Below, piece by piece: positions 446 through 19,412 of a stretch of 22,746 bases of DNA. The stretch's first letter is position 1. The number at the start of each line of letters is the position of its first letter. The DNA comes from a virus. The notes under the pieces are model-generated. The model was given only the letters and a program-made list of their open reading frames with translations, did not search any database and had not been told where the DNA came from. The stretch covers positions 1-22,746 of the IMG/VR virus record IMGVR_UViG_3300012920_000296; one strand, 5' to 3'. Position numbers and translations under genes: made by a program.

Positions 446-1067
446 GTACGCTTCATCTGGCTGTCGCAAAGAGAAAACAGATCTCTATGTAAAGCTAATT
501 CAACCAGCTTTTAATGAAATGGTTGACAAAATTGTATTCACATACAAGTTTACAACACTCCCTAACATTGATGAGTTAAGGGATGATTGCAAAGTATGGC
601 TTACTACTATACTAGGAAAATACGATCCAAATCGCAAATCTAAAGCTTTTTCCTATTTTAGTGTGATTACCAAGAACTGGTTCATTCATCAAGTGAAGAA
701 GAATGCCAAGAGAGCAAAGCGTGAGGTTGATTACGAAGATGCTCTCAAAGAGTTAACGTTCGATAAGATTGTCTACTACAATCCTTATCACGAGAATAGA
801 GAGAAGAAAGAGTTCTGGAATAAGCTTGAGATTGAGATGGACGGCTGGGGAACTGATGATATGAACGATAACGAAAAGAAAGTATACAACGCTATTCGAA
901 TCCTTCTCAATTCTGTTGAAGACATTGAGATCTTCAATAAGAAGGCAATCTATTTGTATCTCCGCGAGATCACCGGAATGAATACCAAGCAAATCGTAAC
1001 CCAGCTTAACAAGTTCAGAAAGAAGTATAAACTCTTCCGTGACGATTGGTATGACTCAAAAATCTAG
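378..1067 (+). CDS. 55: gp55-type sigma factor for late transcription
   Basis: 229 residues, a little longer than T4 gp55 (about 185). This family replaces the host sigma factor on RNA polymerase and recognises the minimal late promoter (TATAAATA in T4), switching on virion genes during replication. Residues about 34-115 fit the sigma region 2-like core: an amphipathic helix (LYVKLIQPAFNEMVDKIVFTYKF), an acidic helix (LPNIDELRDDCKVWLTTIL), then KYDP followed by AFSYFSVITKNWFIHQVKK. The aromatic SYF-x-x-I-x-K-x-(W/Y)-(F/L)-I block and the following Lys/Arg stretch match late sigma factors of marine T4-like phages. Residues about 166-217 form a second helical unit (NKKAIYLYLREITGMNTKQIVTQLNKFRKK) that looks like a helix-turn-helix; T4 gp55 has none there. 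The N-terminus is strongly basic (PRRRKSNKR) and lies in the overlap with the preceding gene. I see no T4-like clamp-binding SLDFLYE tail. The family call is from sequence pattern recognition. Confidence 0.85.
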   Translation: MPRRRKSNKRMYFTQVHEDAILKYASSGCRKEKTDLYVKLIQPAFNEMVDKIVFTYKFTTLPNIDELRDDCKVWLTTILGKYDPNRKSKAFSYFSVITKNWFIHQVKKNAKRAKREVDYEDALKELTFDKIVYYNPYHENREKKEFWNKLEIEMDGWGTDDMNDNEKKVYNAIRILLNSVEDIEIFNKKAIYLYLREITGMNTKQIVTQLNKFRKKYKLFRDDWYDSKI

Positions 1068-1085: not shown

Positions 1086-1373
1086 ATGAGTAAAAAGATA
1101 GACGACTACCTCAAAGAGGCCATAGATAATATACGAGAAGACCGAGAAGTAACTCGTGAACTTCTCGATGATGCCATCAAATATGTTGCAAAAGATGAAG
1201 CTCGCCATAAAGAGGTGGGCATCATCCTCTCCAAATATGTTGAGACCCTTCAAAGATCAAACGAGCAACTTGTAAAGATTGCCGGCCTTATGTCCAAGAA
1301 CGAAAAGACCGATGGCTTGTCCGAAGGAGACATGGAAGACATCTATTCGATGATCAAGAAAGAGGATGAATAA
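1086..1373 (+). CDS. Small all-helical phage protein, unknown function
   Basis: 95 residues, highly charged and predicted almost wholly helical, with no membrane segment and no cysteine. The central block KYVETLQRSNEQLVKIAGLM (about 50-69) has heptad-like spacing and suggests dimer or oligomer formation. The N-terminal IDDYLKEAIDNIREDREVTRELLDDAIKYV is similarly amphipathic. I have seen short proteins with this helical pattern in marine T4-like phages but know no established role. AGAGGA at 1066-1071 overlaps the stop of the sigma gene and sits 14 bases before ATG 1086, a long spacing; there is no in-frame alternative start between them. The stop overlaps the next ATG by one base (TAATG), implying translational coupling to the lysozyme gene. 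A small scaffold, chaperone or regulator would fit, but the sequence does not decide. Confidence 0.8.
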   Translation: MSKKIDDYLKEAIDNIREDREVTRELLDDAIKYVAKDEARHKEVGIILSKYVETLQRSNEQLVKIAGLMSKNEKTDGLSEGDMEDIYSMIKKEDE

Positions 1374-2488
1374 TGTCTTTCAATTTCTTTACAGCATTTC
1401 ATAGAGCCCTTCAAGACCCAGAGGGCTACTTTTCATTTCAAAAGGAGATGAACTCCAAGGCTGTTGAACAAACGTTCTTCAATTCTTTATTAGGGAAAGG
1501 GACCTTTGATGCCGTTGTTCTTCCGGAGAATCTAAGTAGTACAACATATAGTCCCGGCAATAGTGTACTTAGAGTGCGACCCTTGGAGATTCATGACTTT
1601 ATAATACCCGAGCCCTGTCAATACAAAGGAGACTTGGATAAGATAAGAAAAATAATTTCATTACACCCAGTTGCATATCCGGATAGCGAGATACCTTTTA
1701 ATGTTGGAAGCGAGACCACTCCTCAAGCACAATTCCACGCGGGTCAAATCGTAGAGTGTTTTTTCTTGGTAGGACCACAAGGAGCCGGTAAGATGCGAGG
1801 CCTTCGATATCGTAATGCGAAGTTCACCACAGTAAACAACCTAGACTTAACTTGTCTAGGAGGTGGAGAGAAAGGAGCCAAAGCAGCTTTTGCTGATGGC
1901 ATCGAAAACCCACCAAGAACAGATGTACCCATCAGCAAAAGCTCAGCGCAAAAAATTGAGAACTTCATTCAGAAAATAAAGAAGTCGCCTTCTTTCAAAG
2001 GATGGTCAGGTCAAACAATTGCCGGGGTAGTTGCAAACGCTCAGGCCGAATCAGCTTTCAAACAACTGGCTAATGGAGATTCTGTTAAGTTCTATAAAGG
2101 CACAAGCGTAAGTAAAAAGAGAATGGATAATGTACGCAAAAGAAACATTAACGGTAAATGTTCATGGGGCTATTGGCAACTTAACATATGCCCAGACGAT
2201 GGTTCCGGAAAGCAATTAGCAGATAGTAAAGGAATTGACACCAGTACACAAGAAGGTAAAGAAGCTTTTGTAAAATTACTTGAGAATGATGAAGAACAGT
2301 TTAAATGGGTATCCCAGAAGATGTCAGCGATTCTTTCGAAGGGGATTACTAGTACTGATGCTTACCAAGCAGGATATGATATAACAGTCAACTTCGAAAG
2401 ACCTCAAGATAGGTACAACAAAGGCGTTGGTCGAGGGAATTTAGCAGCGTCAATTTACAAAAAATTTCAATCTATATTGGATGCATAA
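1373..2488 (+). CDS. Baseplate hub-like domain fused to tail lysozyme
   Basis: 371 residues in two parts. Residues about 45-155 are beta-rich (VLRVRPLEIHDFIIPEP, HPVAYPD, AGQIVECFFLVGP, GLRYRNAKF) and resemble the OB-fold-like hub domain found ahead of peptidoglycan hydrolases in marine phage tail proteins. A Gly/Ala-rich linker follows (about 160-185). Residues about 188-370 fit the phage tail lysozyme family, which cleaves the glycan strands of peptidoglycan: IAGVVANAQAESAF with Glu226 as candidate catalytic acid, SWGYWQLN (264-271) where the family has its substrate-cleft Gly/Trp/Gln block, and ITVNFERP (337-344), the typical C-terminal signature. There is no signal peptide or transmembrane segment, so it is likely carried in the virion as a cell-puncturing enzyme like T4 gp5, not as an endolysin. 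AGAGGA at 1361-1366 lies 6 bases before the start. GPQGAGK (134-140) resembles a P-loop but lacks the following Ser/Thr. Confidence 0.8.
   Translation: MSFNFFTAFHRALQDPEGYFSFQKEMNSKAVEQTFFNSLLGKGTFDAVVLPENLSSTTYSPGNSVLRVRPLEIHDFIIPEPCQYKGDLDKIRKIISLHPVAYPDSEIPFNVGSETTPQAQFHAGQIVECFFLVGPQGAGKMRGLRYRNAKFTTVNNLDLTCLGGGEKGAKAAFADGIENPPRTDVPISKSSAQKIENFIQKIKKSPSFKGWSGQTIAGVVANAQAESAFKQLANGDSVKFYKGTSVSKKRMDNVRKRNINGKCSWGYWQLNICPDDGSGKQLADSKGIDTSTQEGKEAFVKLLENDEEQFKWVSQKMSAILSKGITSTDAYQAGYDITVNFERPQDRYNKGVGRGNLAASIYKKFQSILDA
1840..1866 (+). other. Inverted repeat overlapping an internal Shine-Dalgarno-like sequence
   Basis: CCTAGAC (1840-1846) and GTCTAGG (1854-1860) are perfect 7-base arms with a 7-base loop. 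The right arm overlaps AGGAGGTGG (1858-1866), a near-perfect anti-16S match. It lies in the lysozyme gene at about codons 156-165, at the boundary between the hub-like and lysozyme parts. No in-frame start codon follows at usable spacing, so an internal start is not supported. Any role, such as ribosome pausing, is speculation. Confidence 0.4.
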
Positions 2489-3424: not shown

Positions 3425-6400
3425 ATGGCAGAATCAAAATTTAAGCAACTCCAAGAAGAGGTATGCTACAAAGAACCCGAAGAAATATCAGAACCGGACA
3501 AAATATGTCCGACATGTATACCAGATCCCAGCTTCAATCCTCCTGATTGGCGGACAACAAGAGTTCCTTATCTAGACAAGAACAATTGTCTGTACAAGGT
3601 CAAGGTCGACATCAACATTGATGGCGATGTATATTATGCTTCTGCAAACGTTCAAGAGTTGGATCCTAAGCAGAGATTAGGGATGGTTCCAATTAGCAAC
3701 TCTCCCTATGATCAAAACGTTCTACTAAAGTCTTACATACGTCCTGCTGTACGCAAGATGCTGAGATACTATGGCAAGCTTGAAACAGACGAGATCGTTT
3801 GTGCTAAACCTCCACAGAATCCGGGCGAGATATGCCAAGGGATTCATGGAGTTGACTACGAAGAGTTCATAACTCAGACGACACAACAAACTGATGAAGC
3901 TATTCCGAACATCTTTGAGATCATAGGAATAGATAGTGAAAACTTGCTGAATATCACCAATATTACAAACCCTGACGCGCTTGAATTGTTCGCAAGGGTA
4001 GAAGACTATGACTACCTAACAAACGCAAGAATTTTGTCTGTTTTGATAGGAATACCGGCATATAAGTTTGATTCCATTCCAAACGCACCCGATCTAGGCT
4101 CAGTCAATACATCAACCGATAAGATCGTAATCAAGCCAGCAGAGTTTATGAACAACATCATTAAGTTCAAATCTGCTATGAAAACATTCTCCAGCTATCA
4201 GGCTTTCTTTAAGCAGCAAGAGAACGGTAGTATATACTTTGAAGAGACTGGGGATCCGTACTATATCAAGTTCTTCTCCGATGCTGGAGGAAGGATAGAG
4301 AAGTTCCTCGAGCGCTTTGAGTCTTTATTGAATCAAAACCTATTCAGTGTCAGGGGACTGTTAGACACAGGCACTGATGTTCCAAACATAGCTTATGAGA
4401 TCGAGATTTCATTTGATAAGTCGTTCGAAACCAGTCCATTTACCATTCAAAACGTAAGAGCTAGAAAGAGAAACTGTCCTTATGTGGAGTGTAGCGTAGG
4501 CTTAGCAAGCTTCATAGACTACTCCAAAAGAGATCAAACAATGTTTGGATACTTTGCGAATATAGATAGCATTGGATCTGCTCTGTCTTTTAACAAGACC
4601 CCTCCATGGATTGACTTTGTAGTTTCTAATACCTTCCCACAGCTAGCTGTTAACTACGGAAGCGCTGGTAACTTCGAAGATACATGCGTCAATAACGACC
4701 TACAAGACTTGCAAGACTTCATTCTTAAAGAAACTGTCGACGCTTTCAAAGCGATAGAGTATCGTTACAATCAGAACCGATGTAAGAAACCAGAAGACAT
4801 CCGAGATTTCAATCAGACCCTCACGACATTCTTGATTGAGGACGGCTCTGAGCAAGCTTTTAATGACTTCTCCGATGCGTTTGCTGAGAGAGCTAGACAG
4901 CTAGATGCTCTACCTAAGAAAATTTTAGATATTCGAAAGAACCTTGGGGAAACCTTTGGTGATATTGGAGCGTCCATCAAAGCGTTTATTGGTAATCTTA
5001 GTCCATGTGGTATCAAAGCGAGCATGTCGGCTTCTATTAAGTGTATCATGGCTGGTCTTAGCGCTGAGGAAGCGTATCGTGCAATCATCAAGCAAATAAT
5101 CTCATCAGCAGGAGAAGAAGCGATAGAGACGATACTACAATCATTACCGGCAAATCAACAAGAAAAGATACGAAAAGAAGTGGAGAAGCAGTTTGGAGAC
5201 ATGCCGTACCCATGGGAACCCGGCTGGGAAGCCGGTGACCTCGGTAGTGCTGTTGATCGTCAAGCTAGAGAAAACATCGAAGCTAAAGAGGAGAAAGCAA
5301 AGACAGCCGAAGAGAACAGTGCGTCTTTGGAGACCCAGATCGCCGCTATCGATGAGAAGATAGCCACAGTCCGTGAGAGATATTTTGATGGTATGCGCGG
5401 AGAGAAAGTAAGGCTTGAAACAGAAATCAGAGAATTAGAGGCGGATCAACAAAGAATTATAGCACTAGCGTCAATAATAGAGGGCATCAAGGCTAGTATA
5501 GCAGACACAAAAGCTAGAATACAGCAGATTCTAGATACAATAGGGGATATAGGCTCCACAATTCAAGACCTAAGAAGCACGGAGAGAGCGCTAACTGAAC
5601 AGTTAACCGATAGACAAACAGAACTGCAACGACTGCAAAGCAGAGTGGCAACTCTTCCCTCAGTCAGATCAGAACTTTCTAGAGTAGATAGTATCTTGGC
5701 AACGGAGAGTGACTTAACAGGAGATACAGAGGCTAATCAAGCAATCTCGCAAGAAAAGGCTAAGTTAGTGGAAGAAGGGCTTAAATTGATTAAGAAGCAA
5801 TCAAAAGAAGATGATACTGCTCAAGATCTGCTTGAATATAAAAATTTTGCTGATCTTTCTCCAGAAGACCAAGCAGAGATGATTGAGAAGCAAAAGGAAA
5901 AGACGTTCCTTGTCAAGATAACTCCGGAAGATAAAATACAGCAAGGCACTCTCGGAAGAGCACTAGGGAACATACAGAAGGCTTTAACTCAAGCCTATAT
6001 TGATGAGATAATGAAAACAGCAACCATTGGAGACCTTCAGAGGGCATTTGAGAACATTCCAGGCTCAGATCTCCTAGGGTCAATAATAAGTCAGTTTAAG
6101 TGCCCCGGAGGAGCATCAATCTATCCTCCTATCGATTCATTTCTCAGCACCCTAACGCTTGATCCATGTAAAGGGACAGCGCCAAAGCTTGCGCTACCAC
6201 CTATACCAGAGATTCCAATTAGTTGGAATTGGCTAGAGGTTTTAGGTGAAGCATTTATGTTTGGAATCAAGCAAGCGTTATCGGCGGTTCTTGTTGCTCT
6301 TATGCGGAAGGTAGCCGAGTTGATAAATACAGATCTCTGCAAACTCACTGGTAATCTACTTAGAGGTGCTGCTGATGGTGGACTCGAAGGTGTTATAGCG

Positions 6401-9400
6401 GAGCTCATATGTGATGACCCAAGGCCTGGAGACACACAAGACAAGATTAATCAAAAGGTTCTAGAGGCAGGTGGAGCACGTAAGAGAAACCCAGATGATT
6501 ATAAGGCTGTAGCCAGTGTTCTCTCGGTCTCAGCCACTCAACGTGAGATCAAAGCAGCCATGGTTGGAAGAGCAGACCAAGATTTCCTAAATAACATGTC
6601 TTCGATTGTAACAGCAGTTGTTCCAAACTTTGCGGATCTATTTGGTGACCCATCCTCTGTTGCAAATTACTTCTCTCAAATGGGCAACCTATTGACACAA
6701 GACCAAAGAAACACTATCAATGATCAGTTGAACAGTCCTTTCGATGACGATTACCCTGTTGAAACAAGTATCTGTTTAACTAAAGAGCAGAAAGAGCAAT
6801 GGGATCAAGAGCGAGCTGCGGCTTTCCAAGACCCAGATTTAGGCCGAGAGTTTGTCAATAAGCAAAATGAAAAAGCCCTTGGTGATTTGTCCGATGCCGC
6901 TGATCTTCTCCTTAATGGCCCAGATGGAGCTCTGCAAGACGTCTTAGACAAAGCCCTGAATCCGAAAGATCCAGACTGTAAGACCAACACTGGTGTCATT
7001 CCCGGGTTTCAGGATCTGCCACAAAACAAGCAGAAATCAGTCCTTACAGCCACAGAAGGCATCTTCAAGAGATTAGAGAGAGCCTTCATCGATGACACCG
7101 TAGAGGCCAATCTATTTGAGATTGGAGATCCTATAGGAATACTCTTAGAGATTTTATCTGATCGTGCTAATCGTAACATGTACTTCCATTTATTGATCAA
7201 GAACAACCCATTCCTCAGCTTCTTGTTTGGTGGCGGTGCTGACCTTCCAGATACGGTTGGTATAAGAATGAAGAATCAAATCGACGAGATCTCCGGTGAC
7301 TATGCTATTAGACCTTCTGTTTCCGACCCAGCATTCACTCTTACATTCAACAACGGCAAGGAAGGCACAAAGGCCTTCTCTGATGTGGTGACCATTGAAG
7401 ACAATACAGCAAATGATTCAATTAGAATCGAAGATCAGTTTCAAGAGATAAACGTATCTTACAATCTCGAAGTACCAGAGATATTTGCTGTAACAAATGA
7501 AGAGTCCCAAGTTCTCGATAGCTCTCGAGCAGCTATGTTGAAGAAGCTTTTAGAGCATAACTGGTCTCAATTTGAAGATGCTGAGATAGACGAAGACATA
7601 GTGATTAACATATACCAAGACATCAACAACACAATTTACAACGGCTTTATAAAGAAAATGATTTATCGTAGAGAGGGCGAGATGTCCGAAGGATTCAGAT
7701 ATGGTAAAGAAGGAACAGAGATTGTTGAAGATCAAGATCTGGTTTACGTTGGGCCAAATGGCGAAGAGCCATATGAGGACTTCTACAGTGAAGTGGACAA
7801 GGTTCTCGGCAAGAGTAAAACAAACAATCCTAGAGTCCACTTCTTGGACCCCTCTAAATATGGTGGGACCTACATGAAGCCTCAGATCTACATTGAAGAA
7901 GCTGATCACAAAGGCTGGCTAAACTTCTCTAAAGTTGTTGTACCAGATCCAACTGGTTGTGATCCTAAGAACTCTAACTTCCTGATGTTAGATTCCATTA
8001 TGAAAGACATCGAGAGCAACAAGAGCAAGATAAAAAACCACGAACTGCTACAATATGCGCCCGAGTGTACTCCGGAGTTACCATTCGACAAGATAGCCAA
8101 CTCTGATACCTTATCTACCTTGGAAGGCATCGTCCGTGCAACTATTCGAGTTTACTTAACAGAGTTTATGACACAGACATATTCAATATTCTCAAACATA
8201 GATCTCACAGACAGAAACTTTGACAACACTTTGTCCGAGTACATAGCTGAGTTCATGATTCGCGGAATAAAGGATCAGAGAGCTGTGTTTACTTCAACCT
8301 ATGAAGGCTATACTTATCTATTACTGTTTCTAGAGCAAGTTGTTCAGATAGTACATCGAAGAGTTCGAGACGCTAGAATGGAGAGTAATGATGAGATTGA
8401 AGGAGTATTAGAGACGTGTAACACAGCGCAAGAGAGCCACATTATAATCAACACAACTGATCTTAATCACATTAAACTGTGGGAAGGTGTATACGCGAGA
8501 ACAATCGAAGCAATATTACCTATAAATATTCAATGGACAGAGGACGTTGAAGTCAAAATTGATGTTATCAAAAAGGGAATAAGCATACTCTCCGGAGAAG
8601 CAGACGAAGGGTTCGACTTCTTATCGTTTTTACAAGGTGTTACATTTGATCTTACCACGATATCGCTAGAAGATGCAAGATTTGCTAGCAAAGTTGCAAC
8701 AATAGATTCTGTTTACTTTGAGATCAAAAAGCTTTTAAAGTATCTTGTAGCTGAGGAACTCGAGACTTACAAGACTAAGCTGAGAGATGAACTCTCGCCG
8801 AGACCTTATATTTATGACACGTCTAAGTTCTTCATCGGAGCCTCAAACATGCTTTATGGAAAAAACATCGACGCTGGTACGTTCGACACAGAACTACCCA
8901 TTGGTGGAGGTATTGGTAACTTCCCCTACGGAGACATCTTGAACTGTGCAAGATCCCACATGAACCATCCACTCGATGGCTCAAGACTCACAGCAGAGGA
9001 ATCAACAAAATTATCAGAAGAAGGAGGGTTCTATCTGGAGAAGTATCTCGTAGTTACTCCAAAAGAGAATCTGAGACCTTCTATAACAATACCCGATACA
9101 GTTGTTGGTACAACATCTATCCCTGAACTCAAGAATTTTTTAACCAATTATGCTTTTCAATTTGACCAAACAAAAAGTATATCTGATTACTTTGGTGACG
9201 CAATCCTCAATGAAGAAGAGACCAACTATGAAGGAACTATAGGCATTAAGTATGGCGTAAGGTTGTGCTATGTGCCCAAATTAGGCTTTGAACCTATAGG
9301 AAATACTGCTGAGAACCGCGCATTAGCTAAAGCAAATAGAAGTTATATTCATAACCTGACGAACCTGAATGGTAAAATCTCCAAGTATACCTTCCCCGTT

Positions 9401-9940
9401 GCTTCGTATGAACAAGACCTAACTGATGTGACCATCAAAGAACTAATCGAAAGTAACGACAACTTAAACCAAGATCTTAAGTGCTATATTGACAAGCTAA
9501 GCGAAACACAAGAGTTCCGTCATCTGATGGACAACGTATTGTCAATCACCAAGATACCTTCATTGTTGATGATTTATTCCTTTAATTTCTTTCTCCCTTC
9601 TCTTGGAGACTCTTCCGAGAGGGACAGCGGGGATGATCAAGAAGTCATATCACCGAGTGACATCGGCAAGGTGATGAACGATAGCAAAGCCGAGGCTAGA
9701 AAGCTCTTTGTATCCTTCTATAAGAACAACGACAGGCATCCTCCAAATGAAGAAGAAAATGTTGATTTTGTTTCTCAGATACAGAAGCAAACGCTTTCTA
9801 AACTTTCGTTCGTAGAGTTTGATACCACTCTGTCCTTCGATATACGAAGGCGCTTAAGGAAAGACAAACCGTTTGATAAGAACGGAGAAGAGTGTAAAAA
9901 TAATTTTGGCAAGTTATTTAAGATAGGAGGAACATCATAA
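3425..9940 (+). CDS. Giant (2171-residue) probable baseplate structural protein, unrecognised
   Basis: One uninterrupted frame of 2171 residues; I do not recognise a known domain with confidence. Near the N-terminus is CPTCIPDPSFNPPDW (28-42), a CPxC motif with further Cys at 55, 126 and 137, a pattern I recall from giant marine phage tail proteins. Other Cys-containing turns recur along the chain: CPYVEC near 350, SPCG and IKCIMAG near 525-545, KCPGG near 893, DPTGCDPK near 1510. Residues about 612-765 are a long charged helix with heptads (SLETQIAAIDEKIATVRERY, LETEIRELEADQQRII, ALTEQLTDRQTELQRLQSRV), a probable coiled coil. Residues about 932-973 are a hydrophobic amphipathic segment (FMFGIKQALSAVLVALMRKVAELI). 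The C-terminal half is mixed alpha/beta and acidic. It lies between the spike and gp25 genes and its stop overlaps the gp25 start by one base, so a baseplate hub or hub-to-wedge connector is likely. It does not look like a tape measure: composition is mixed and there is only one long coiled coil. GAGAG at 3416-3420 is a weak binding site. Confidence 0.8.
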   Translation: MAESKFKQLQEEVCYKEPEEISEPDKICPTCIPDPSFNPPDWRTTRVPYLDKNNCLYKVKVDINIDGDVYYASANVQELDPKQRLGMVPISNSPYDQNVLLKSYIRPAVRKMLRYYGKLETDEIVCAKPPQNPGEICQGIHGVDYEEFITQTTQQTDEAIPNIFEIIGIDSENLLNITNITNPDALELFARVEDYDYLTNARILSVLIGIPAYKFDSIPNAPDLGSVNTSTDKIVIKPAEFMNNIIKFKSAMKTFSSYQAFFKQQENGSIYFEETGDPYYIKFFSDAGGRIEKFLERFESLLNQNLFSVRGLLDTGTDVPNIAYEIEISFDKSFETSPFTIQNVRARKRNCPYVECSVGLASFIDYSKRDQTMFGYFANIDSIGSALSFNKTPPWIDFVVSNTFPQLAVNYGSAGNFEDTCVNNDLQDLQDFILKETVDAFKAIEYRYNQNRCKKPEDIRDFNQTLTTFLIEDGSEQAFNDFSDAFAERARQLDALPKKILDIRKNLGETFGDIGASIKAFIGNLSPCGIKASMSASIKCIMAGLSAEEAYRAIIKQIISSAGEEAIETILQSLPANQQEKIRKEVEKQFGDMPYPWEPGWEAGDLGSAVDRQARENIEAKEEKAKTAEENSASLETQIAAIDEKIATVRERYFDGMRGEKVRLETEIRELEADQQRIIALASIIEGIKASIADTKARIQQILDTIGDIGSTIQDLRSTERALTEQLTDRQTELQRLQSRVATLPSVRSELSRVDSILATESDLTGDTEANQAISQEKAKLVEEGLKLIKKQSKEDDTAQDLLEYKNFADLSPEDQAEMIEKQKEKTFLVKITPEDKIQQGTLGRALGNIQKALTQAYIDEIMKTATIGDLQRAFENIPGSDLLGSIISQFKCPGGASIYPPIDSFLSTLTLDPCKGTAPKLALPPIPEIPISWNWLEVLGEAFMFGIKQALSAVLVALMRKVAELINTDLCKLTGNLLRGAADGGLEGVIAELICDDPRPGDTQDKINQKVLEAGGARKRNPDDYKAVASVLSVSATQREIKAAMVGRADQDFLNNMSSIVTAVVPNFADLFGDPSSVANYFSQMGNLLTQDQRNTINDQLNSPFDDDYPVETSICLTKEQKEQWDQERAAAFQDPDLGREFVNKQNEKALGDLSDAADLLLNGPDGALQDVLDKALNPKDPDCKTNTGVIPGFQDLPQNKQKSVLTATEGIFKRLERAFIDDTVEANLFEIGDPIGILLEILSDRANRNMYFHLLIKNNPFLSFLFGGGADLPDTVGIRMKNQIDEISGDYAIRPSVSDPAFTLTFNNGKEGTKAFSDVVTIEDNTANDSIRIEDQFQEINVSYNLEVPEIFAVTNEESQVLDSSRAAMLKKLLEHNWSQFEDAEIDEDIVINIYQDINNTIYNGFIKKMIYRREGEMSEGFRYGKEGTEIVEDQDLVYVGPNGEEPYEDFYSEVDKVLGKSKTNNPRVHFLDPSKYGGTYMKPQIYIEEADHKGWLNFSKVVVPDPTGCDPKNSNFLMLDSIMKDIESNKSKIKNHELLQYAPECTPELPFDKIANSDTLSTLEGIVRATIRVYLTEFMTQTYSIFSNIDLTDRNFDNTLSEYIAEFMIRGIKDQRAVFTSTYEGYTYLLLFLEQVVQIVHRRVRDARMESNDEIEGVLETCNTAQESHIIINTTDLNHIKLWEGVYARTIEAILPINIQWTEDVEVKIDVIKKGISILSGEADEGFDFLSFLQGVTFDLTTISLEDARFASKVATIDSVYFEIKKLLKYLVAEELETYKTKLRDELSPRPYIYDTSKFFIGASNMLYGKNIDAGTFDTELPIGGGIGNFPYGDILNCARSHMNHPLDGSRLTAEESTKLSEEGGFYLEKYLVVTPKENLRPSITIPDTVVGTTSIPELKNFLTNYAFQFDQTKSISDYFGDAILNEEETNYEGTIGIKYGVRLCYVPKLGFEPIGNTAENRALAKANRSYIHNLTNLNGKISKYTFPVASYEQDLTDVTIKELIESNDNLNQDLKCYIDKLSETQEFRHLMDNVLSITKIPSLLMIYSFNFFLPSLGDSSERDSGDDQEVISPSDIGKVMNDSKAEARKLFVSFYKNNDRHPPNEEENVDFVSQIQKQTLSKLSFVEFDTTLSFDIRRRLRKDKPFDKNGEECKNNFGKLFKIGGTS
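5220..5235 (+). other. GC-rich hairpin with GNRA-type loop inside the giant gene
   Basis: CCGGCT, GGGA, AGCCGG gives a perfect 6-base stem with a GNRA-type tetraloop (GGGA). It encodes PGWEAG just before the coiled-coil region of the giant protein. No T-tract follows, so it is not an intrinsic terminator. It may be chance. Confidence 0.35.
9925..9931 (+). promoter_or_regulatory. Strong ribosome binding site for the gp25 gene
   Basis: AGGAGGA, 8 bases before ATG 9940 and inside the end of the giant gene, is the best Shine-Dalgarno match before any start in the window. It would allow the gp25 gene to be translated at a higher rate than the 2171-residue gene before it, fitting the greater copy number expected of a wedge protein. 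Confidence 0.7.
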
Positions 9941-10350
9941 TGCCAACAAACGTATTAGCCGTACAATTTCCACTTAAGATAAATTCCGAAACAGGAGCAC
10001 TGCTTGTGTATACCATGTCGGAATTGCAGTCTGTTATAGAACAAAACATCAAGATGATACTTTTAACAAACCCCGGAGAAAGACTGTTCAATGACAACTT
10101 TGGAGTTGGCCTCTCAAGATATCTATTCTTGCAGGAGTCTCAAATCCTCAATGGTGTTCCCGGAGATGATAGATTTCCGCCACTTAGACAGTATATAAGA
10201 ACGCAGCTACAAGCCTATATGCCCTACATAACAGTAGAAAACATCCTGTTATCAACAAAACAGAACTTATTGAATGTGCAATTCAAGTACTATGTTAATA
10301 ATTCAGCCACAGCTTTTGAATTTGATTTGACGATTAGCGATGTAAGTTAG
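9940..10350 (+). CDS. 25: Baseplate wedge protein, GPW/gp25 family
   Basis: 136 residues, matching T4 gp25 (132). The protein sits in the inner wedge of contractile tails and makes the contact from which the sheath is built; its relatives in type VI secretion (TssE) act likewise. The family signature is clear: LQSVIEQNIKMILLTNPGERLFNDNFGVGLSRYLF (29-63), with the conserved NPGER at 44-48 and the FGVGL turn at 54-58. RQYIRTQLQAYMPYITVENI (83-102) is the usual second helix and strand, and the end alternates beta strands (NVQFKYYVNN, FEFDLTISDV). TAATG joins it to the giant gene before it. It is followed by the gp6-like wedge gene, its direct structural partner. This is one of the surest calls in the window. 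Confidence 0.94.
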   Translation: MPTNVLAVQFPLKINSETGALLVYTMSELQSVIEQNIKMILLTNPGERLFNDNFGVGLSRYLFLQESQILNGVPGDDRFPPLRQYIRTQLQAYMPYITVENILLSTKQNLLNVQFKYYVNNSATAFEFDLTISDVS

Positions 10351-10394
10351 TAAATTAATAGGGAAACTACTTATTTTAGTTATGAGGGATGTAT
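10351..10394 (+). other. Short intergenic gap with the gp6-like ribosome binding site
   Basis: At 44 bases this is the longest non-coding stretch in the window. GAGGG at 10384-10388 touches ATG 10389 but lies 6 bases from ATG 10395, so the second ATG is taken as the start. A weak 5-base inverted repeat (AACTA 10365-10369, TAGTT 10377-10381) precedes it. No convincing late promoter (TATAAATA) or terminator is visible. Confidence 0.5.
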
Positions 10395-12194
10395 ATGCCA
10401 AAGAATAAAAATATAATGGTGAAATACACCAGTCGAGACTTCGAGAGCATAAAAAGTGATCTTATTGATCATGCCAAGAGGTATTACCCCGATGGTTATC
10501 GCGATTTCAGTGAAGCCTCTTTTGGTTCACTTATGATAGATTTAGTTTCCTATACTGGTGATATTCTATCATATTACTTAGACTATCATGTCAATGAAAG
10601 CTTTTTAGATACTTCATTAGAATTTGACAACATAAGGAAGCATGCTCGAGCATTAGGATACAAGTTTGCTGGGTCTCCTTCTTCTTTTGGAATAGTATCT
10701 TTGTTTATCCTGTGTCCGGCGAACACTGATGGTACCGACCCAGATAGAGACTATCTTCCAATTTTGAAAGCCGGAACAACATTCTCTACTGTTGATGGTG
10801 GTAACTTTTCGTTAACTGAAGATGTCGACTTCTCTAACAGCACTGTCGACACTGTTGGCGCTAGGATTGATTCAACCAGTGGTCAAACAACCTACTTCGC
10901 TGTTCGTGCATACGGTCAAGTCAAATCAGGTATACTCCAAAGAGCTACGGTAGATCTCACTAACTCTACATTTGAGAAGTTTAAAAGAGTAAGAGTTGGC
11001 GGCACTAATATATCCGAGATTGTCTCCGTCTACGATTCAGATGGCAATCGCTACTATGAAGTTGATAATCTTTCTCAAGAAGTTGTTTTTGTTGACACAA
11101 CAAACAAGAACGCTCAGACAGATGGTGTTAGATCAATTCTTAAGCCATTCGCGACAACACGTAGATTCACAGTCGAACAAGACGACACAGGAACTTATCT
11201 TCAGTTTGGGTTTGGATCCGATGGGGAAGACGATCAAGGTCTAACAGATCCTTCTCGTGTAGCCTTGAAGATGTCAGGTAAAGATCATATATCTTCTAAG
11301 TCATTTGATCCTGCTAAGTTGATTTCAACCAACAAGCTTGGCATATCACCGTACAACACAGAATTGTCGATAATATTTAATTCAAACTCTCCGGAAGCTT
11401 CAAACGTCGCTGCAAATAGCTTGAACACTGTGGTGGGTAGTTCCTTTGTCTTTCAGGACTTAAACGAACTTATAGCTAGCGAGAGAGACTTTGTAGTAAA
11501 CTCTTTAGAGGTTAGCAATGACAACCCAATAACCTCAATAAACGTTGACATTTCAGTTGAAGAGCTCAAACAGAGAGCAAAGTCACATTATGCGATGCAG
11601 AATAGAGCAGTGACAAAGCAAGATTATGAGTCCTTAGTCTACAACATGCCAAATAAATATGGTGCTGTAACAAGGGCAAACATAGTGAATGATCCATCAT
11701 CTAGTAACAGAAAGATCTCTTTGTATGTTATCTCGCAGAATAACGATGGACATCTCGCAGAGACTAACATGGTCACGAAACAAAACATTAAAAATTGGCT
11801 TAACCAATACAAGAGTCTCAACGATCAGATTGAGATCTATGATCCTAAGATTGTAAACATTGGAATTGAGTTTGTTGTTATGATTGACAAGAGATTCTCT
11901 CAAGATGCTGTTCTTCAAGAGTGCATCGACGAGGTCAAGGAATTACTAGCAGACAAGCTATACATCGGCGAACCACTGTATCTTACTAGAATATACGAGA
12001 GACTCAACAGAGTTGATGGAGTTGTTGATGTGAGAAAAGTAATGTTTGACAACAAGAGTGGAGGTAACTATTCATCAATATCGATGGACTTAGATAAGAT
12101 ACTCTCCAAAGATGGGACCTACCTCAAGACACCAGATAACGTGATCTTGGAACTCAAGTTCCCAGACTTAGATATTAAAGGGACGGCAAAATAA
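10395..12194 (+). CDS. 6: Baseplate wedge protein, gp6/baseplate-J-like
   Basis: 599 residues from ATG 10395; ATG 10389 would add MY but abuts the ribosome binding site. The protein is about the size of T4 gp6 (660), which forms the dimeric ring holding the wedges around the hub. The N-terminal block VKYTSRDFESIKSDLIDHAKRYYPDGYRDFSEASFGSLMIDLVSYTGDILSYYLDYHVNESFLDTS (9-74) is the hallmark of this family in marine T4-like phages. Residues about 386-550 match the J-like fold: VEELKQRAKSHYAMQNRAVTKQDYESLVYNMP, then GAVTRANIV, ISLYVIS, TKQNIKNWLNQYKSLNDQIEIYDPKIVNIGIEFVVMID and PLYLTRIYERLNRVDGVVDVRKVMF. The middle third (about 100-380) is beta-rich and less conserved. It follows the gp25 gene, its known wedge partner, and overlaps the next start by one base. 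Confidence 0.87.
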   Translation: MPKNKNIMVKYTSRDFESIKSDLIDHAKRYYPDGYRDFSEASFGSLMIDLVSYTGDILSYYLDYHVNESFLDTSLEFDNIRKHARALGYKFAGSPSSFGIVSLFILCPANTDGTDPDRDYLPILKAGTTFSTVDGGNFSLTEDVDFSNSTVDTVGARIDSTSGQTTYFAVRAYGQVKSGILQRATVDLTNSTFEKFKRVRVGGTNISEIVSVYDSDGNRYYEVDNLSQEVVFVDTTNKNAQTDGVRSILKPFATTRRFTVEQDDTGTYLQFGFGSDGEDDQGLTDPSRVALKMSGKDHISSKSFDPAKLISTNKLGISPYNTELSIIFNSNSPEASNVAANSLNTVVGSSFVFQDLNELIASERDFVVNSLEVSNDNPITSINVDISVEELKQRAKSHYAMQNRAVTKQDYESLVYNMPNKYGAVTRANIVNDPSSSNRKISLYVISQNNDGHLAETNMVTKQNIKNWLNQYKSLNDQIEIYDPKIVNIGIEFVVMIDKRFSQDAVLQECIDEVKELLADKLYIGEPLYLTRIYERLNRVDGVVDVRKVMFDNKSGGNYSSISMDLDKILSKDGTYLKTPDNVILELKFPDLDIKGTAK

Positions 12195-13693
12195 TGGCAA
12201 TAAAAAGATATTTCGCAGACGCAGACAACACAATAACCAATGCTTTCCAAGACAACCTCACCACAAGAGGAACAGGTTCTAATATGGGCCAAGCAGATAT
12301 TCTAGAGGTGTTTTCGATATACGCTCAACAGAGCGCAACCTCAACAGAAGCAGCTCGTTTTCTTATTAAGTTCCCAGTCATAGAGCAAATTAGCGCCGAC
12401 AGAACTGCTGGCTTGATTCCTAGCAATGGAGATGTAAGTTTCTATCTCAAGCTATACAACGCACGTCATCCGTTTACACTTCCAAAGAATTACAAACTAG
12501 ATGTTCTCGCTGTCTCGTCTTCGTGGGAAGAAGGCAACGGACTCGATATGGAGAACTACTCAGATGAGACATATGACGGCATAGGGTCTAACTGGATCAA
12601 TGCTTCCTCTGGCACTCCATGGACGACGGAAGGCGGTGACTACCATGTTTCACCCGCTTTCACTCAAAGCTTTGACAAGGGAGATGAAGATCTCGAAGTG
12701 AACGTGACCTCGCTTGTTGAAGAGTGGATCGCTGGAGACAAGAATAATTACGGCTTTGGTATCAAACTCTCGGCATCCTATGAAGCCTCTTCCTCGCTGA
12801 ACCCAGATGGCGCCGAATTCTCTTATTACACCAAGAAGTTCTTCGCTCGTTCCTCTGAGTACTTCTTCGACAGACCTGTTCTCGAAGCAAGATGGGACTC
12901 AACACGCAAGGACAACCGAGGGAATTTCTACTTCAGTTCCTCTTTGGCTCCTGCTGCTGAGAATCTCAACACACTTTGGATGTACAACTACATTAGGGGA
13001 AAACTCCGTGATATTGCTGGAGATTCCAACGCACGACCCGTTTTAAACCTCTATGCCTCCTCCGGGTCTGTTCCGGAAGGTGACGCGCTTTATTTCCGCG
13101 ATTCTTCCAATAATGCGGTAAATTTTCTCTCAGCCTCTCGAGAGTCTACAGGAGTATATAAGGCTTCCTTCTCTGTAACCGGTGGTGCCGTGACAACGGT
13201 TCGCCCTTACCTCCAAGATGTTTGGACGATGAGTGGAAGTGAATTGCACACAGGGTCAGTCATAGTTCCCAAGGACCATAGTTTCTCCAACTATAATCCA
13301 AACAGCAAACACGTTGTGGCAATTACGAACCTTAAACCGAGGTACACAACAGGACAGACTGAGAGATTCCGACTATATGTCCGAGAGAAGAATTGGTCTC
13401 CAAACATTTATACAGTAGCTAAGAGCACACCAGCAAACCTTCTTATCGAGAGTGCTTCTTATCAACTGACAAGACTTTCGGATAACAAGATAGTTATACC
13501 ATACAACACAGGCTCAGATTCAGCCACAATGCTTTCTTATGACGTTTCTGGTAACTACTTTGACTTGGATTTAGATATGCTAGAGGCTGGGTACACTTAC
13601 GGCCTTAAACTCTCTTTTTATGAAGATTCTATGTCTTCATATCGAGAGCAACCATATACATTCAAGATTAGAGTAGAACAAGATGAGTATTAA
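12194..13693 (+). CDS. Virion structural protein with CBM96/DNRLRE-like domain
   Basis: 499 residues. Residues about 10-235 read as a beta sandwich of the DNRLRE/CBM96 type: DNTITNAF at the start, RFLIKFPV (56-63), VSFYLKLYNA (81-90), LDVLAVSSSWEEGNGLDM (102-119), NWINASSGTPWTTEGGDY (133-150), and LEVNVTSLVEEWIAGDKNNYGFGIKL (167-192). The spaced W-E-G, W, GGD and V-x-x-W-x-x-G elements are typical of that fold, known from secreted and cell-wall proteins and often sugar-binding. Then comes DNRGNFYFSSSLAPAAENLNTLWMYNYIRGKLRDI (240-274), a block I recall from large marine phages. The C-terminal half is again beta-rich, with RFRLYVREKNWSPNIY and DVSGNYFDLDLDMLEAGYTYGLKLSFYED. It is placed like T4 gp7 or gp8 after gene 6, but no homology to those is visible. 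AAGGGA at 12178-12183 serves as binding site. A peripheral baseplate role is inferred; the sugar-binding idea is unproven. Confidence 0.75.
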   Translation: MAIKRYFADADNTITNAFQDNLTTRGTGSNMGQADILEVFSIYAQQSATSTEAARFLIKFPVIEQISADRTAGLIPSNGDVSFYLKLYNARHPFTLPKNYKLDVLAVSSSWEEGNGLDMENYSDETYDGIGSNWINASSGTPWTTEGGDYHVSPAFTQSFDKGDEDLEVNVTSLVEEWIAGDKNNYGFGIKLSASYEASSSLNPDGAEFSYYTKKFFARSSEYFFDRPVLEARWDSTRKDNRGNFYFSSSLAPAAENLNTLWMYNYIRGKLRDIAGDSNARPVLNLYASSGSVPEGDALYFRDSSNNAVNFLSASRESTGVYKASFSVTGGAVTTVRPYLQDVWTMSGSELHTGSVIVPKDHSFSNYNPNSKHVVAITNLKPRYTTGQTERFRLYVREKNWSPNIYTVAKSTPANLLIESASYQLTRLSDNKIVIPYNTGSDSATMLSYDVSGNYFDLDLDMLEAGYTYGLKLSFYEDSMSSYREQPYTFKIRVEQDEY

Positions 13694-16600
13694 AAGTTTA
13701 TTTGACAACAAAACCAAAGTTATTCAGAACGCGACTTCCGCATCTGCTGAAGTTGAATCCAAGGGCTATATCCTAGAAAGAATAAAGCGAGATGAAACCT
13801 TCATTCCTTATATCGACTTTGCCTCCGCATCCAACTTTGCAAAGTTCGGATCAGCCGAAGAGTATTACAAGAAGGCTATCGAGAGAATCCACGATGACTA
13901 TCCTTACGATGGATCTCAGAAAGAGAAGCTTCAGTTTGAGCTTTCGTCCTCTTATCTGGACAAATACATCTTTGACAAGCGTTACCCCAAGACAAATGGC
14001 TATATCAACTTCTCTTATGGAGGTTGGGGAACTCGACAGAGTTTGGTAGACGGTTATGGCCGACCATTTGCTGCTGAGAGAGAATATATCTTCTTAAAAG
14101 GAGGTATACATGCTGCTGATGGTATGAGTACACAGCCACTTAGGATTAATTTTGATAAGTCTATAAAATATGACCAAGCAAAAGATAGAGTTTCAAGTCT
14201 CCTAATTGACCCAATAGAAGGACTCACAGTGGAATTTTGGCTTAAGAAAGACGGATTTGATTTGACCAAGACAGAGAAAGAGGTTATCCTAGACCTATGG
14301 AACAACGAAAACTCATCTTCTGCGGATTATGGTCGCTTTACCTTAGCATTATCAGGTACTACTTCTGGTGAGGATACCTTTATAGTAACCCTACAGTCTG
14401 GATCTAATGGCTTCTATGAACAAGCAATAGGCACTTCAACCGTTACGACCTCCTCCTTATCTTCTTGGCACCACTACGCCCTTTCGTTCGTCTCTGCTTC
14501 ATCAGCAATAACTGGTCGCTTATATGTTGATGGAGATCTCAACGAGAGTAAATCATTAGGCTCAACCGGTCTCAATACAATCGGTGGCTTAGTCAATGGT
14601 TACATTGGTGCTCTAATCGCCAATCCTTCAGGCAGCTCTGCACCAGTGAAGTCAGGTAAACTAAGTGGCAGCCTAGATGACTTTCGCTACTGGAAGACAC
14701 GGAGAACATCAAAGCAAATATATGATAACTGGTATCGTCATGTTGGTGGTGGTACAAATACAGATGATGCTAATACAAAGCTAGGTGTCTATTACAAATT
14801 CAACGAAGGTGTAACAGGGAACAGCGCAACAGATGCTACGGTGCTAGACTATTCTGGTCGCTTAGTCAACGGAACTTGGACAGGATATTCTTCTGGTGCT
14901 CGCTCCACAAACTCTGCATTCGTTGAATCCGGACTGTTAACCTCTGAAGAACAAGACCCAATTATCTATAGTACCCATTCAGATGTCTCCTCTTTGAAGA
15001 CAGAACTAATGGCCCTAGGCAATACACATGACAATAATAACCCAAGCTTCTTGTATGCCAAGATCCCTCAGTGGATCAGAGATGAAGATCCCGCTACCGA
15101 CAATACCACAAAGAACATGATACAAATCATGGCTAGCTATTTTGATACCCTACACGTACAGATTAGCGCCTTACCTCATCTTAAGAACAAAGTATATCCA
15201 AGTTCAAGCTATAAACCACTACCGTTTGCACGAAACTTACTTGAAGACAAAGGACTTATAACAGCAAATCTTTTTGCTGACTCTACAGTTCTCGAGATGT
15301 TTGAAGATCGTGATGTTAATCAAGTGAAGTTTGAAGAGAAAATTACAGACGTAAAGAATCAAATCTATACTAACATCTACAACAACCTAGAAGCAATCTA
15401 TAAGCATAAAGGAACAGAAGGATCTGTTCGTAATATGCTCCGTTGCTTTGGTATAGATGACGAGATCGTCAAGCTAAACATCTATACTGACGAAGGAACT
15501 CACTACTTCTCTGATGCCTTTAAGTACACAAACGTCAACAAGAAGTTTATAGATTTTAATTCAGCCCAACGTAACAGTGCTACTGTTTTTAACGAAACCT
15601 CTTCGATCAACAGTAATAGCTTTATATCTGGATCTGGTGCTGAAAAACTTGAGCAGTTTAACGCGCTCACATCTGAAGTATCGATTATTGTACCGAAGAA
15701 ACTAGGATTCTTCGATCCCGGATACTACAAGACAAGCTTCCTTTCCTCATCTATTTTTGGACTTCATCAAGCAACAACAGCCTCTGGATACACTTGGGAC
15801 TCCCCAGACCTAGCCAACTTGCAAGTATACTTGGTTCGTGATGAGATTGAATCTCCAAATGCTAAGTTTGTGTTGAAAGATTATGGTGGTAATATCAACC
15901 TTGAAACCGATACCTACAAAGAGATTTACTCCAATGAACACTGGAATCTCGCAGTAAGAGTTAAACCTGAAGACTATCCGATAGCCGGTAATGTTGTTAC
16001 CTCCTCCAATAGGAGTTACACACTAGAATTCTACGGAGTGTCTCATACTTTTGACACTGTCAAAGAAGAGTTCTTGTTGACCGCTAGTCTTAACTATGAT
16101 ACAGGCTCAGCCTACCTAAGTAATCCAAAGAGGTTCTATGTTGGAGCTCATCGTACAAACTTCTTTGGAAGTGTTCTAGAGCAGAGTGATATTAAAGTTG
16201 GCAAGCTAAATGTGTGGCTTGATTACGTTGATAACGACACCATCAAGCTTCACAATAAAGATATTACGAGCAAAGGAACATACAGAACACATAGACCTTC
16301 TACTTTATTCGGAAAGGATCTGTCGCAATATGAAGTACCTTCATATGAATTGGCCATATTAGACTGGGATTTTGAGTCAATCACAACATCTGACGGCTCG
16401 GGAGAGTTTACAGTAATTGATACGACAAGTGGCTCAACAGATTCTCGCTATGGTTGGGTTGACGGAGTTACTAGGCGACTACACAACGGTGTTGGCCGTG
16501 GCTTCCCCGCTTCTTCCAATGTTATCTCAAACGAGATTGTCTACGCTTCTAAGAAGGAACTACCTGAAATCTCCTATTCTTCTGATGGTGTAACTATCAA

Positions 16601-19412
16601 AGGGGAACAAGAGCAGTACTTCATCGAAGACGAAGACGTGTCGGACAACTTCTATGCTCTCGAAAAGAGCATGAACCAAGTCGTTTCCGAAGAGATGATG
16701 AGAACCTTATCGACTGCACAAGAAATGTCTAACCTTATGGGTGAAGCTGTTGAGCGATATCGCATGAACTATAAGAAGCTAGACAATGTTCGTCGTATGT
16801 TCTTTGAAGACGTTGAAACCGATCCGGACTTTGATCGCTTCACCGAGTACTTCAAGCTTATCGATTCTGCAATGTCCTTCATGATATCCCAGTTATTCCC
16901 TGTATCTGTACGTTTCTCAAAGGGAATCTCTGACGTGGTTGAGTCTCATCTATTCGAGAGAAACAAATATCAAAACAAATTTCCTCTCATTACAACACAT
17001 ACAGCGACAGAAGGTTCGGCATTTGGCATCGGACAGTCAAAATATCGTTGGGAGTTTGGTCATGCTCCGTTAAGCGGAGACGACAATGATAGTTGTCTGT
17101 GGCAAAAGACTCGAGCTGAAAGATCTGATATCACTCAACGCGAGACCATCAAGGACATAATCAATAACAGAAACAATGCTACAGCAACAACCTTAGCCAA
17201 ACAAGATAGGTCCACTTATACCAGATCAACTTACGGTATAAGAAACTTCTCAAAACCTGTTGACATGAAGGCTGTTATCTCTCAAACCTTCCACCCCGGA
17301 ATCAATTACTCTTTGCAGAAAGACAGAGATTACGTATGGTCTGCTGTTAATAGACACTCTGAATTAACATCAATTGGGGTGCCAAAGAATGTCTTGATCG
17401 TTGGAGCCGGGCCCGGTCAGGGAATTGAACTACCGGTTGACTGCAATGATGTTGAGATTCCAAATCAAAAGAAGAAATACAATACTACCGTATATGTTGG
17501 TAAGCAAGCTGCTGGTGCACCCGGAGGGTCATTCTCACCGATCAACGACAGCGCTTCGTATACATACGCCGTTAGAGGTAAAAACAAGCTTCCATTTGAT
17601 ATTTTCTCTGGCTCGATTACTACTGGGTACAACTCTAGTATAGCCTCTGGGTACCGCTCAGATGCTGTTGTTACAAACCTACATACAGACACTACAAACT
17701 TCTCAAATGATTTGCCCTTGCAAAGTCCTTTCACTCAGCAGTGGGTTGGAGGACACCAAGCTCGCCACGTAGATCTTAATCGCTATGATACGACTCTGTT
17801 TGATGAAGAGACCGGGGCCGCTCCTACAAACAATCTAGACAACCTTCATACACGAGCAGAAGCATGGCTAATAAAAGTTGTAGAATCAGGAGGTTCTTCT
17901 GATGGTGCTATCGGTCTAGTAGATCCTCAGTATGGAGTGACAGCGATTTCCGGACATCCCAATAACGGGAAGTACCCCGATGTTGCTAAAAAAACAGCCA
18001 CATTGTACAGAGATTTACGTACTAAGAGACCTGTAAACGTTTCCAACATACAAACCACTACATCAAGCGCAAACCACGGAAATTATTCAAAAACTTATGA
18101 CATTATAAGTGTTGCTGGTGGTGTTCACGAGAACAATTTTTATCTTCGTAAAAATCCAGAGCAAACAAATTACTTGCCGCAAAGCATAACTAATGCTTTA
18201 CCGGAAACAACCAACCCCATGACGCTTTTAGCGCAATCTCCGTATTTTAACGGCAATATATTTGGAACTTATGGAAATAATAGACAACCAGATGGCGAAT
18301 CAGTGTTGCCGGTATATAATTATGCCTCTGGGAGTTTCACAATAAGTGGAACAGCAGGGGTCAACGATGGAACACTATTGCAAATAGGAAACCCAGAGTC
18401 TATTATAGAGTTTGATAAGAATGGTTCAACCAACCCTAGTAACATTGTAATAGAAGCCACTTCTTCAGATGCTAGATTGTGGCAAGCTTTGGCAGATGCT
18501 ATTAAAAACCAGGTGGGCTGGTCAACCGGTTCGTTACCATACGCAGTTAATGGTGACGGAACAGCAACATTTGCAATAACCTCTAGTATTCGCGGTCCAT
18601 CGCAGAATGGAACAATTATTATTAGAGATCTTTTCGGTTCGTATCTGGTAATCGATGATTCCGGAAGTGGAGGGGATACATTGTTATCCACTACCACGGC
18701 AAAAGATATTGTGATTCCTCGTATCACCTCTTCTGTTTCTGATTTGGTCTTCACAACAAGATTTTCTGCACCGGGTGGCATTGAAGCGCAATCTTATGGC
18801 TATCTAGATGCTTATGCTCATGAATACTCTGTTTACAATAGTCTCAATTACAGAAACCTCACGGTTCGTGGTATTGGTGTTCGTGTTTCTGCTTCTGCCG
18901 ATGGCTCTGAATTCTATGCTTTTGGCGGATCAGGTGAAGCAACGACAATAAGGATCAACAATCAACTTAATCAAAGGGATGGACTAAAATCACTATTGAC
19001 AAGACATTGCGGAAAGTTTGGAACGGACTCTAGAAATGTGCCGTATAGCAGAACCACTGATTCCAATCTATCCGAGACAGAGTTTCAGATTGATGCTGGT
19101 AAACCTTCATTCCATAAACAACAAAGAAACGAGAACAGGAGACCAAGTGATACTTCAACTGTTTTAGTTCCTGTTCTTGTAAAGAGACACGATAATATGT
19201 ATATCAACTCTCCAATTCCAAGATCTGACTTTCAATATAAGTGGGTAACTTCTTCCATTGGAGATAATTATAGTATAACAAGTGGAAAGCAAAGAATGTA
19301 TGGATACGCACACCCATCAGGGATCATGAGTTCTTCCGTTGAGATAGATGGAGATTCCGGTTTCGTTCCTGCAATAACTTTCCCGACAGCCTCAGAGATA
19401 TTTGGAGAGTAG
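13683..19412 (+). CDS. Giant (1909-residue) virion protein with LamG-like domains
   Basis: 1909 residues starting 11 bases inside the previous gene, with a weak AGAG before it. Residues 41-117 (DFASASNFAKFGSAEEYYKKAIERIHDDYPYDGS, SSSYLDKYIFDKRYPKTNGYI) are a conserved opening block of large marine phage baseplate proteins as I recall them. Residues about 180-400 are a LamG/concanavalin-like sandwich: LTVEFWLKKD, SSWHHYALSFV (260-270), GRLYVDG (278-284), SLDDFRYWKTRRTSKQIYDNWY (330-351). Residues about 665-865 look like a second such sandwich (NEHWNLAVRVKPEDYP, RFYVGAHRTNF, VGKLNVWLDYV). Residues about 979-1105 are helical (ALEKSMNQVVSEEMMRTLSTAQEM, RYRMNYKKLDNVRRMFFEDV, ESHLFERNKYQNKFPLI). 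About 1548-1674 is an apparent inserted module. The end carries SFHKQQRNENRR and INSPIPRSDFQYKW. It probably forms the outer baseplate or short-fibre layer; LamG folds suggest surface glycan contact, which is inference. It is far longer than any T4 wedge protein (gp7 about 1030). Confidence 0.82.
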   Translation: MSIKSLFDNKTKVIQNATSASAEVESKGYILERIKRDETFIPYIDFASASNFAKFGSAEEYYKKAIERIHDDYPYDGSQKEKLQFELSSSYLDKYIFDKRYPKTNGYINFSYGGWGTRQSLVDGYGRPFAAEREYIFLKGGIHAADGMSTQPLRINFDKSIKYDQAKDRVSSLLIDPIEGLTVEFWLKKDGFDLTKTEKEVILDLWNNENSSSADYGRFTLALSGTTSGEDTFIVTLQSGSNGFYEQAIGTSTVTTSSLSSWHHYALSFVSASSAITGRLYVDGDLNESKSLGSTGLNTIGGLVNGYIGALIANPSGSSAPVKSGKLSGSLDDFRYWKTRRTSKQIYDNWYRHVGGGTNTDDANTKLGVYYKFNEGVTGNSATDATVLDYSGRLVNGTWTGYSSGARSTNSAFVESGLLTSEEQDPIIYSTHSDVSSLKTELMALGNTHDNNNPSFLYAKIPQWIRDEDPATDNTTKNMIQIMASYFDTLHVQISALPHLKNKVYPSSSYKPLPFARNLLEDKGLITANLFADSTVLEMFEDRDVNQVKFEEKITDVKNQIYTNIYNNLEAIYKHKGTEGSVRNMLRCFGIDDEIVKLNIYTDEGTHYFSDAFKYTNVNKKFIDFNSAQRNSATVFNETSSINSNSFISGSGAEKLEQFNALTSEVSIIVPKKLGFFDPGYYKTSFLSSSIFGLHQATTASGYTWDSPDLANLQVYLVRDEIESPNAKFVLKDYGGNINLETDTYKEIYSNEHWNLAVRVKPEDYPIAGNVVTSSNRSYTLEFYGVSHTFDTVKEEFLLTASLNYDTGSAYLSNPKRFYVGAHRTNFFGSVLEQSDIKVGKLNVWLDYVDNDTIKLHNKDITSKGTYRTHRPSTLFGKDLSQYEVPSYELAILDWDFESITTSDGSGEFTVIDTTSGSTDSRYGWVDGVTRRLHNGVGRGFPASSNVISNEIVYASKKELPEISYSSDGVTIKGEQEQYFIEDEDVSDNFYALEKSMNQVVSEEMMRTLSTAQEMSNLMGEAVERYRMNYKKLDNVRRMFFEDVETDPDFDRFTEYFKLIDSAMSFMISQLFPVSVRFSKGISDVVESHLFERNKYQNKFPLITTHTATEGSAFGIGQSKYRWEFGHAPLSGDDNDSCLWQKTRAERSDITQRETIKDIINNRNNATATTLAKQDRSTYTRSTYGIRNFSKPVDMKAVISQTFHPGINYSLQKDRDYVWSAVNRHSELTSIGVPKNVLIVGAGPGQGIELPVDCNDVEIPNQKKKYNTTVYVGKQAAGAPGGSFSPINDSASYTYAVRGKNKLPFDIFSGSITTGYNSSIASGYRSDAVVTNLHTDTTNFSNDLPLQSPFTQQWVGGHQARHVDLNRYDTTLFDEETGAAPTNNLDNLHTRAEAWLIKVVESGGSSDGAIGLVDPQYGVTAISGHPNNGKYPDVAKKTATLYRDLRTKRPVNVSNIQTTTSSANHGNYSKTYDIISVAGGVHENNFYLRKNPEQTNYLPQSITNALPETTNPMTLLAQSPYFNGNIFGTYGNNRQPDGESVLPVYNYASGSFTISGTAGVNDGTLLQIGNPESIIEFDKNGSTNPSNIVIEATSSDARLWQALADAIKNQVGWSTGSLPYAVNGDGTATFAITSSIRGPSQNGTIIIRDLFGSYLVIDDSGSGGDTLLSTTTAKDIVIPRITSSVSDLVFTTRFSAPGGIEAQSYGYLDAYAHEYSVYNSLNYRNLTVRGIGVRVSASADGSEFYAFGGSGEATTIRINNQLNQRDGLKSLLTRHCGKFGTDSRNVPYSRTTDSNLSETEFQIDAGKPSFHKQQRNENRRPSDTSTVLVPVLVKRHDNMYINSPIPRSDFQYKWVTSSIGDNYSITSGKQRMYGYAHPSGIMSSSVEIDGDSGFVPAITFPTASEIFGE

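Follow-up and report, generated by a model that had tools for sequence, protein, structure and literature searches.

Within the window, that is the whole stretch of 22,746 nucleotides analysed here, lies the entirety of a 22.7-kb virus record, probably a genome fragment. A preliminary description had placed a single 2171-residue ORF between spike and gp25 genes, and we confirmed this arrangement, with a spike-like gene upstream and gp25 downstream (Table 1). A gap of 7 nt lies between the 308-aa gene and the giant ORF, the stop of which shares 1 bp with the start of gp25. Upstream of it, the genes follow in the order late-sigma-like gene, small gene, spike/lysozyme gene and 308-aa gene, the last being called spike-like because a 625-aa protein at the spike/lysozyme position of another contig, L026, is matched in part by its profile (96%). 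The late-sigma-like gene sits within the baseplate operon and stays adjacent in relatives and outgroups. Full-length homologues of the giant, with 22-53% identity, were found in independent contigs, indicating that the ORF is not due to chance. It is, as first described, larger than any T4 hub protein, since the largest T4 baseplate gene seen was gp7 (1032 aa), and no segment reached the usual threshold for a membrane helix (best 1.52). The setting is that of a T4-type contractile baseplate operon (gp5 spike/lysozyme, gp25, gp6): gp25 and gp6/Baseplate_J homologues adjoin the giant in this order, a spike lysozyme is encoded upstream, and contigs related to the window carry sheath, tube, gp26-like, portal and capsid genes. 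Two of the sheath genes (G003:C1:103846-107169 and G004:C1:120702-123650) encode about 980-1110 aa, T4 gp18 having 659 aa. Among the downstream genes, p1909 has relatives reaching 2654 aa, and outgroup phages carry related genes of 1265-1400 aa; no match of p1909 to gp7 of T4 or S-SSM7 was detected.

Table 1. Genes of the window and features of the giant protein
Feature	Position	Strand	Remarks
Late-sigma-like gene	378-1067		phrog_234, weak at 0.011
Spike/tail lysozyme gene (Phage_lysozyme2)	1373..2488	+	4.3e-14
Spike-like gene, 308 aa	2491..3417	+	directly upstream of the giant wherever the flank is covered
Giant baseplate-operon protein	3425..9940	+	2171 aa from an ATG without internal stops; homologues in independent contigs
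N module, residues 1-605	3425..5239	+	stand-alone ORF in L178 (622 aa) and L142 (592 aa)
Candidate metal site, C14, C28-PT-C31, C55	3464..3589	+	in 31-34 of 32-35 aligned members
Coiled-coil-like stretch, residues 606-840	5240..5944	+	53-422 residues across the family
Middle module, residues 841-1190	5945..6994	+	stand-alone 583-aa ORF in L178
Variable linker, residues 1191-1420	6995..7684	+	228-512 aa across the family
C-terminal region, residues 1421-2171	7685..9937	+	holds C1512, C1548, C2020, C2157
gp25 baseplate wedge (GPW_gp25)	9940..10350	+	1e-7; T4 gp25 at 97.7%
gp6/Baseplate_J wedge	10389..12194	+	phrog_219, 1e-22
p499, 499-aa baseplate-operon gene	12194..13693	+	no T4 match
p1909, 1909-aa baseplate-operon gene	13683..19412	+	conserved in giant-bearing relatives
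p1115, further giant gene, >1115 aa	19402-22746		same operon

We then looked at the distribution of the giant. A search of IMG/VR with the giant profile returned 54 loci, and a scan with a gp6 profile, read from the 80 best of at least 599 matches, added many further ones; giants missed by the first profile were mostly recovered by an iterated profile. The family comprises about 100 uncultured viral contigs, with members of about 2,200 residues. In nearly every qualifying locus, meaning one with the flank covered and a gp6 at least 39% identical to that of the window, the gene order was spike-like gene, giant, gp25, gp6, p499 and p1909, and the giant amounted to 1291-2863 aa as one or more ORFs. 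Wherever the flank was covered, the spike-like gene, the giant and gp25 were nearly contiguous or overlapping. Tblastn against 50,697 phage records gave no match to the giant of the window, and none to four further queries, which were divergent members or portions of such members. Likewise, no relative was found in the GTDB genomes scanned, and no credible match in Pfam, PHROGs or PDB sequences; a lysozyme match (5i8l, 8.8e-5) was rejected as the sum of two non-significant repeats. Compared with about 180 proteins from outgroup phages, the tail operon and the window, the giant gave no match above 1% probability. As judged by these searches, the giant is an undescribed family of its own, restricted here to uncultured viral contigs. 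Regarding the hosts, psbA was sought in 14 contigs and not found, and Shine-Dalgarno sites are in use, which argues against a Bacteroidota host. Relatives of gp6 in MAGs were scattered over unrelated taxa; three close ones, in bins called Actinomycetes, Maricaulis and Flavobacteriales (L232, L233 and L234, respectively), are probably mis-binned phage contigs.

The cassette itself is more widely distributed. Mel-JY01 (Microcystis), immuto (Flavobacterium) and the uncultured phage LR756508 have a g229-like gene, a spike region, gp25, gp6 and a p499-like gene as here, and their gp6 is 30-33% identical to that of the window. They differ in that a gene of 139-223 aa replaces both the 308-aa gene and the giant, and the giant profile found nothing anywhere in their records. 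The same search was negative for the full records of T4, S-PM2, S-SSM7, P-SSM2, HTVC008M, PAU, RM378, PhiW-14 and phiM12, so that T4 and the T4-like phages tested differ from the window in having no relative of the giant. Together with L026 and L196-L206, Mel-JY01, immuto and LR756508 form the outgroups (gp6 identity 26-34%), which share the cassette with the giant-bearing loci and have only smaller genes ahead of gp25. In the gp6 tree, every giant-bearing virus falls on one side.

The preliminary description had proposed that the giant may have arisen by fusion and stand in for several hub or connector genes of T4 (gp27, gp48, gp53, gp54). To look at this, the giant profile was compared by hhalign with T4 gp3, 5, 5.4, 6-12, 15, 25-29, 48, 51 and 53, gp54 being left out. 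Against the hub and wedge proteins, including gp27, gp29, gp48 and gp53, the probability was at most 2.6%, a value to be read with the limited sensitivity of T4 entries that are single sequences; the controls nevertheless ranked their own T4 counterparts first (gp25 97.7%, gp6 24%). Thus, while the general genomic setting resembles that of T4 gp27/gp29/gp48/gp53/gp54, similarity to those compared was undetectable. Moreover, related contigs hold a separate tail operon with a sheath of about 1000 aa, tubes, a gp26-like gene and a LysM/gp53-like gene. The gp26-like gene (PF12322, 2e-15) was found in 4 of 12 contigs that carry a giant, each of which may be a fragment, and the LysM gene, whose best T4 match is gp53 (11%), in 8 of 14. 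One gp26-like protein (G003:C1:108290-109141, L090:8290-9141) shows weak zinc-ribbon matches at its C-terminus. The LysM gene lies between two genes, of 187-373 aa and 890-1532 aa, neither of which has a T4 match; they offer a natural site for tube-cap and hub proteins. At G019:C1:28543-29679, the 187-aa family occurs in two adjacent copies, possibly a gp48/gp54-like pair. Since a separate gp53-like gene exists in these relatives, gp53 was not replaced in them; gp27, gp48 and gp54, sought by sequence in the same contigs, were not recognised. The search for separate hub genes thus answers for gp53 alone, and the lack of a recognised gp27, gp48 or gp54 may be counted on the side of fusion, as may the position of the giant next to the spike. 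Altogether, with gp26-like and gp53-like genes elsewhere, a fusion of T4 hub genes is not supported.

Fusion could also be suggested by the modular build of the protein, as some relatives have stand-alone modules. In L178, the place of the giant is occupied by genes of 622, 583 and 568 aa in a row, the first two matching residues 1-600 and 850-1180, and the third corresponding to the C-terminal region by position and iterated profile. Two genes (592 and 1316 aa) are found in L142, and in L179, L150, L161 and L170 the C-terminal part is separate, with 566-612 aa; window residues 1960-2123 are homologous to these stand-alone genes (iterated profile, 2.6e-32). Frameshift errors are unlikely, since each part has its own ATG and the junctions show short spacers or 4-bp overlaps like ordinary phage genes. 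In the gp6 tree, split forms occur in two separate places within the unsplit clade, making fission of one ancestral gene simpler than fusion. Self-comparison revealed no internal repeat (best 19% probability). The earlier idea of fused ancestral units thus stands as far as modularity goes, parts of the giant being adjacent genes in some relatives, whereas duplication was not found and fission is the simpler history. Taking both sides together, we regard replacement of T4 hub genes by fusion as quite improbable, and the data point to a new baseplate component. Between the modules lie a variable linker and a charged, coiled-coil-like stretch; the latter had been described as a central coiled coil of about 150 residues, and its character is retained while its length comes to about 235 residues (~606-840). 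Weak matches within it were to coiled-coil families only.

The Cys motifs noticed at first are present, namely CPTC (residues 28-31), CPYVEC (351-356), SPCG (527-530) and KCPGG (892-896). 'Cysteine-rich' would be an inexact label, as Cys makes up 1.15% of the residues of the giant against 0.9-1.0% in the proteomes of the relatives, and the unusual trait is conservation. We aligned 40 non-redundant members, the most distant pairs being about 15-20% identical. Of the 25 Cys of the window giant, 19 were near-invariant among them, despite 20-30% identity. Cys was by far the most conserved residue type in the giant (mean 0.85; Trp, at 0.62, and Pro, at 0.54, came next), so the importance given to these motifs is borne out by strong constraint. 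In the extended family, C28 (45/45), C893 (50/50), C972 (66/66) and C1117 (70/70) were invariant among aligned members, and the middle module, which contains the last three, is the most widely conserved part. Within the N module, C351, C421, C453, C528 and C540 are near-invariant, and C126, C137 and C356 co-vary with C-terminal Cys. Indeed, the six Cys of the window giant that vary fall into three co-varying pairs, 126-1841, 137-1948 and 356-1665; for the first, both Cys were present in 23 members, one in 2 and neither in 10. Certain clades have additional pairs of their own, namely 281-1897, 1028-1066 and 1131-1140. A partner at phi of at least 0.85 was found for 15 of 20 variable Cys columns, with means of 2-49% for other residues. 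When the tree was taken into account, 12 of 21 Cys columns were paired against a null mean of 4.8, a level reached in 2 of 2000 simulations, and columns of some rare residues (His or Trp, for example) at times did as well as those of Cys. Co-variation of Cys thus exceeds branch-length chance, only moderately once the tree is considered, which is good evidence but not proof. Since pairs 126-1841, 137-1948, 281-1897 and 356-1665 all connect the N region (126-356) with the C region (1665-1948), their pattern suggests that the two regions touch. For the near-invariant Cys, co-loss in the extended family does not separate the partners, and their odd total (19) counts against the stapled-scaffold interpretation given below.

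The metal-binding role first put forward for the Cys motifs could hold for the N-terminus, where CPxC with C14 and C55 resembles a four-Cys metal site. These four Cys are absent at the aligned columns in L024, and C14 and C55 vary in more divergent members. Could all the conserved Cys be buried free thiols or a set of zinc sites, without disulfides? The C14-CPTC-C55 arrangement does recall zinc knuckles, and phage proteins fold in a reducing cytoplasm. Past residue 55, however, the Cys are single and widely spaced rather than CxxC, and their gains and losses tend to be paired. We therefore consider this explanation unlikely.

A contractile-tail baseplate held by disulfides is known from Agrobacterium phage Milano, in which disulfide bonds link many tail proteins (PMC10811340). 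The window resembles Milano in combining a contractile-tail baseplate with Cys, the Cys of Milano being functional and the disulfides of the giant predicted. It differs in that the conserved Cys are nearly confined to the giant: two were counted in the 308-aa gene and one or a few in gp6 and p1909, while gp25 and p499 lacked them altogether. For gp25, gp6, p499 and p1909, a network spanning the baseplate as in Milano was thus rejected, and that of the giant would be internal.

Our preferred interpretation, held with slightly better than even confidence, is that the giant would be a lineage-specific structural protein of the T4-type baseplate, a Cys-stapled scaffold linking spike/hub to wedges. 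Its synthesis may be coordinated with that of the spike and gp25, and it may be part of the virion, where it would most likely form a rigid scaffold from the central spike/hub to the gp25-gp6 wedges, built of the N module, the variable coiled coil, the middle module, the variable linker and the C-terminal region. The N and C regions would probably pack together, and the near-invariant Cys would staple the modules by disulfides arising after release from the cell, and/or by a four-Cys metal site, the N-terminal one probably existing besides the disulfides. Position in the operon does not, by itself, give the place of the giant in the particle. It could instead belong to a peripheral host-adsorption apparatus, such as a tail-fibre base, skirt or receptor-binding scaffold, rather than to an inner hub-wedge connector. 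Its large size, strong divergence and variable coiled coil and linker would fit such a role, and external phage proteins often use disulfides. Contrarily, conserved positions run along the entire giant with no repeat found, its gene is always coupled to those of the spike and gp25, and the downstream giants p1909 and p1115 are alternative candidates for adsorption, so a peripheral role seems to us rather unlikely. Returning to the scaffold, a more detailed version, in which a three-part Cys-stapled scaffold of one to three chains would be a baseplate component of a new class that joins spike and wedges and its long-range bonds form on release and set the tail trigger, is offered as speculation that we think doubtful.

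T4-type baseplates have been treated as a conserved set of parts, to which a large uncultured lineage adds a giant with no known relative. Its gene stands between those for the spike and the wedges, so these viruses may contain a major structural element that has gone undescribed. Module borders can be read from the naturally split forms and used in expression and structural studies, and the network of conserved Cys yields testable predictions on how such tails may be held and triggered.
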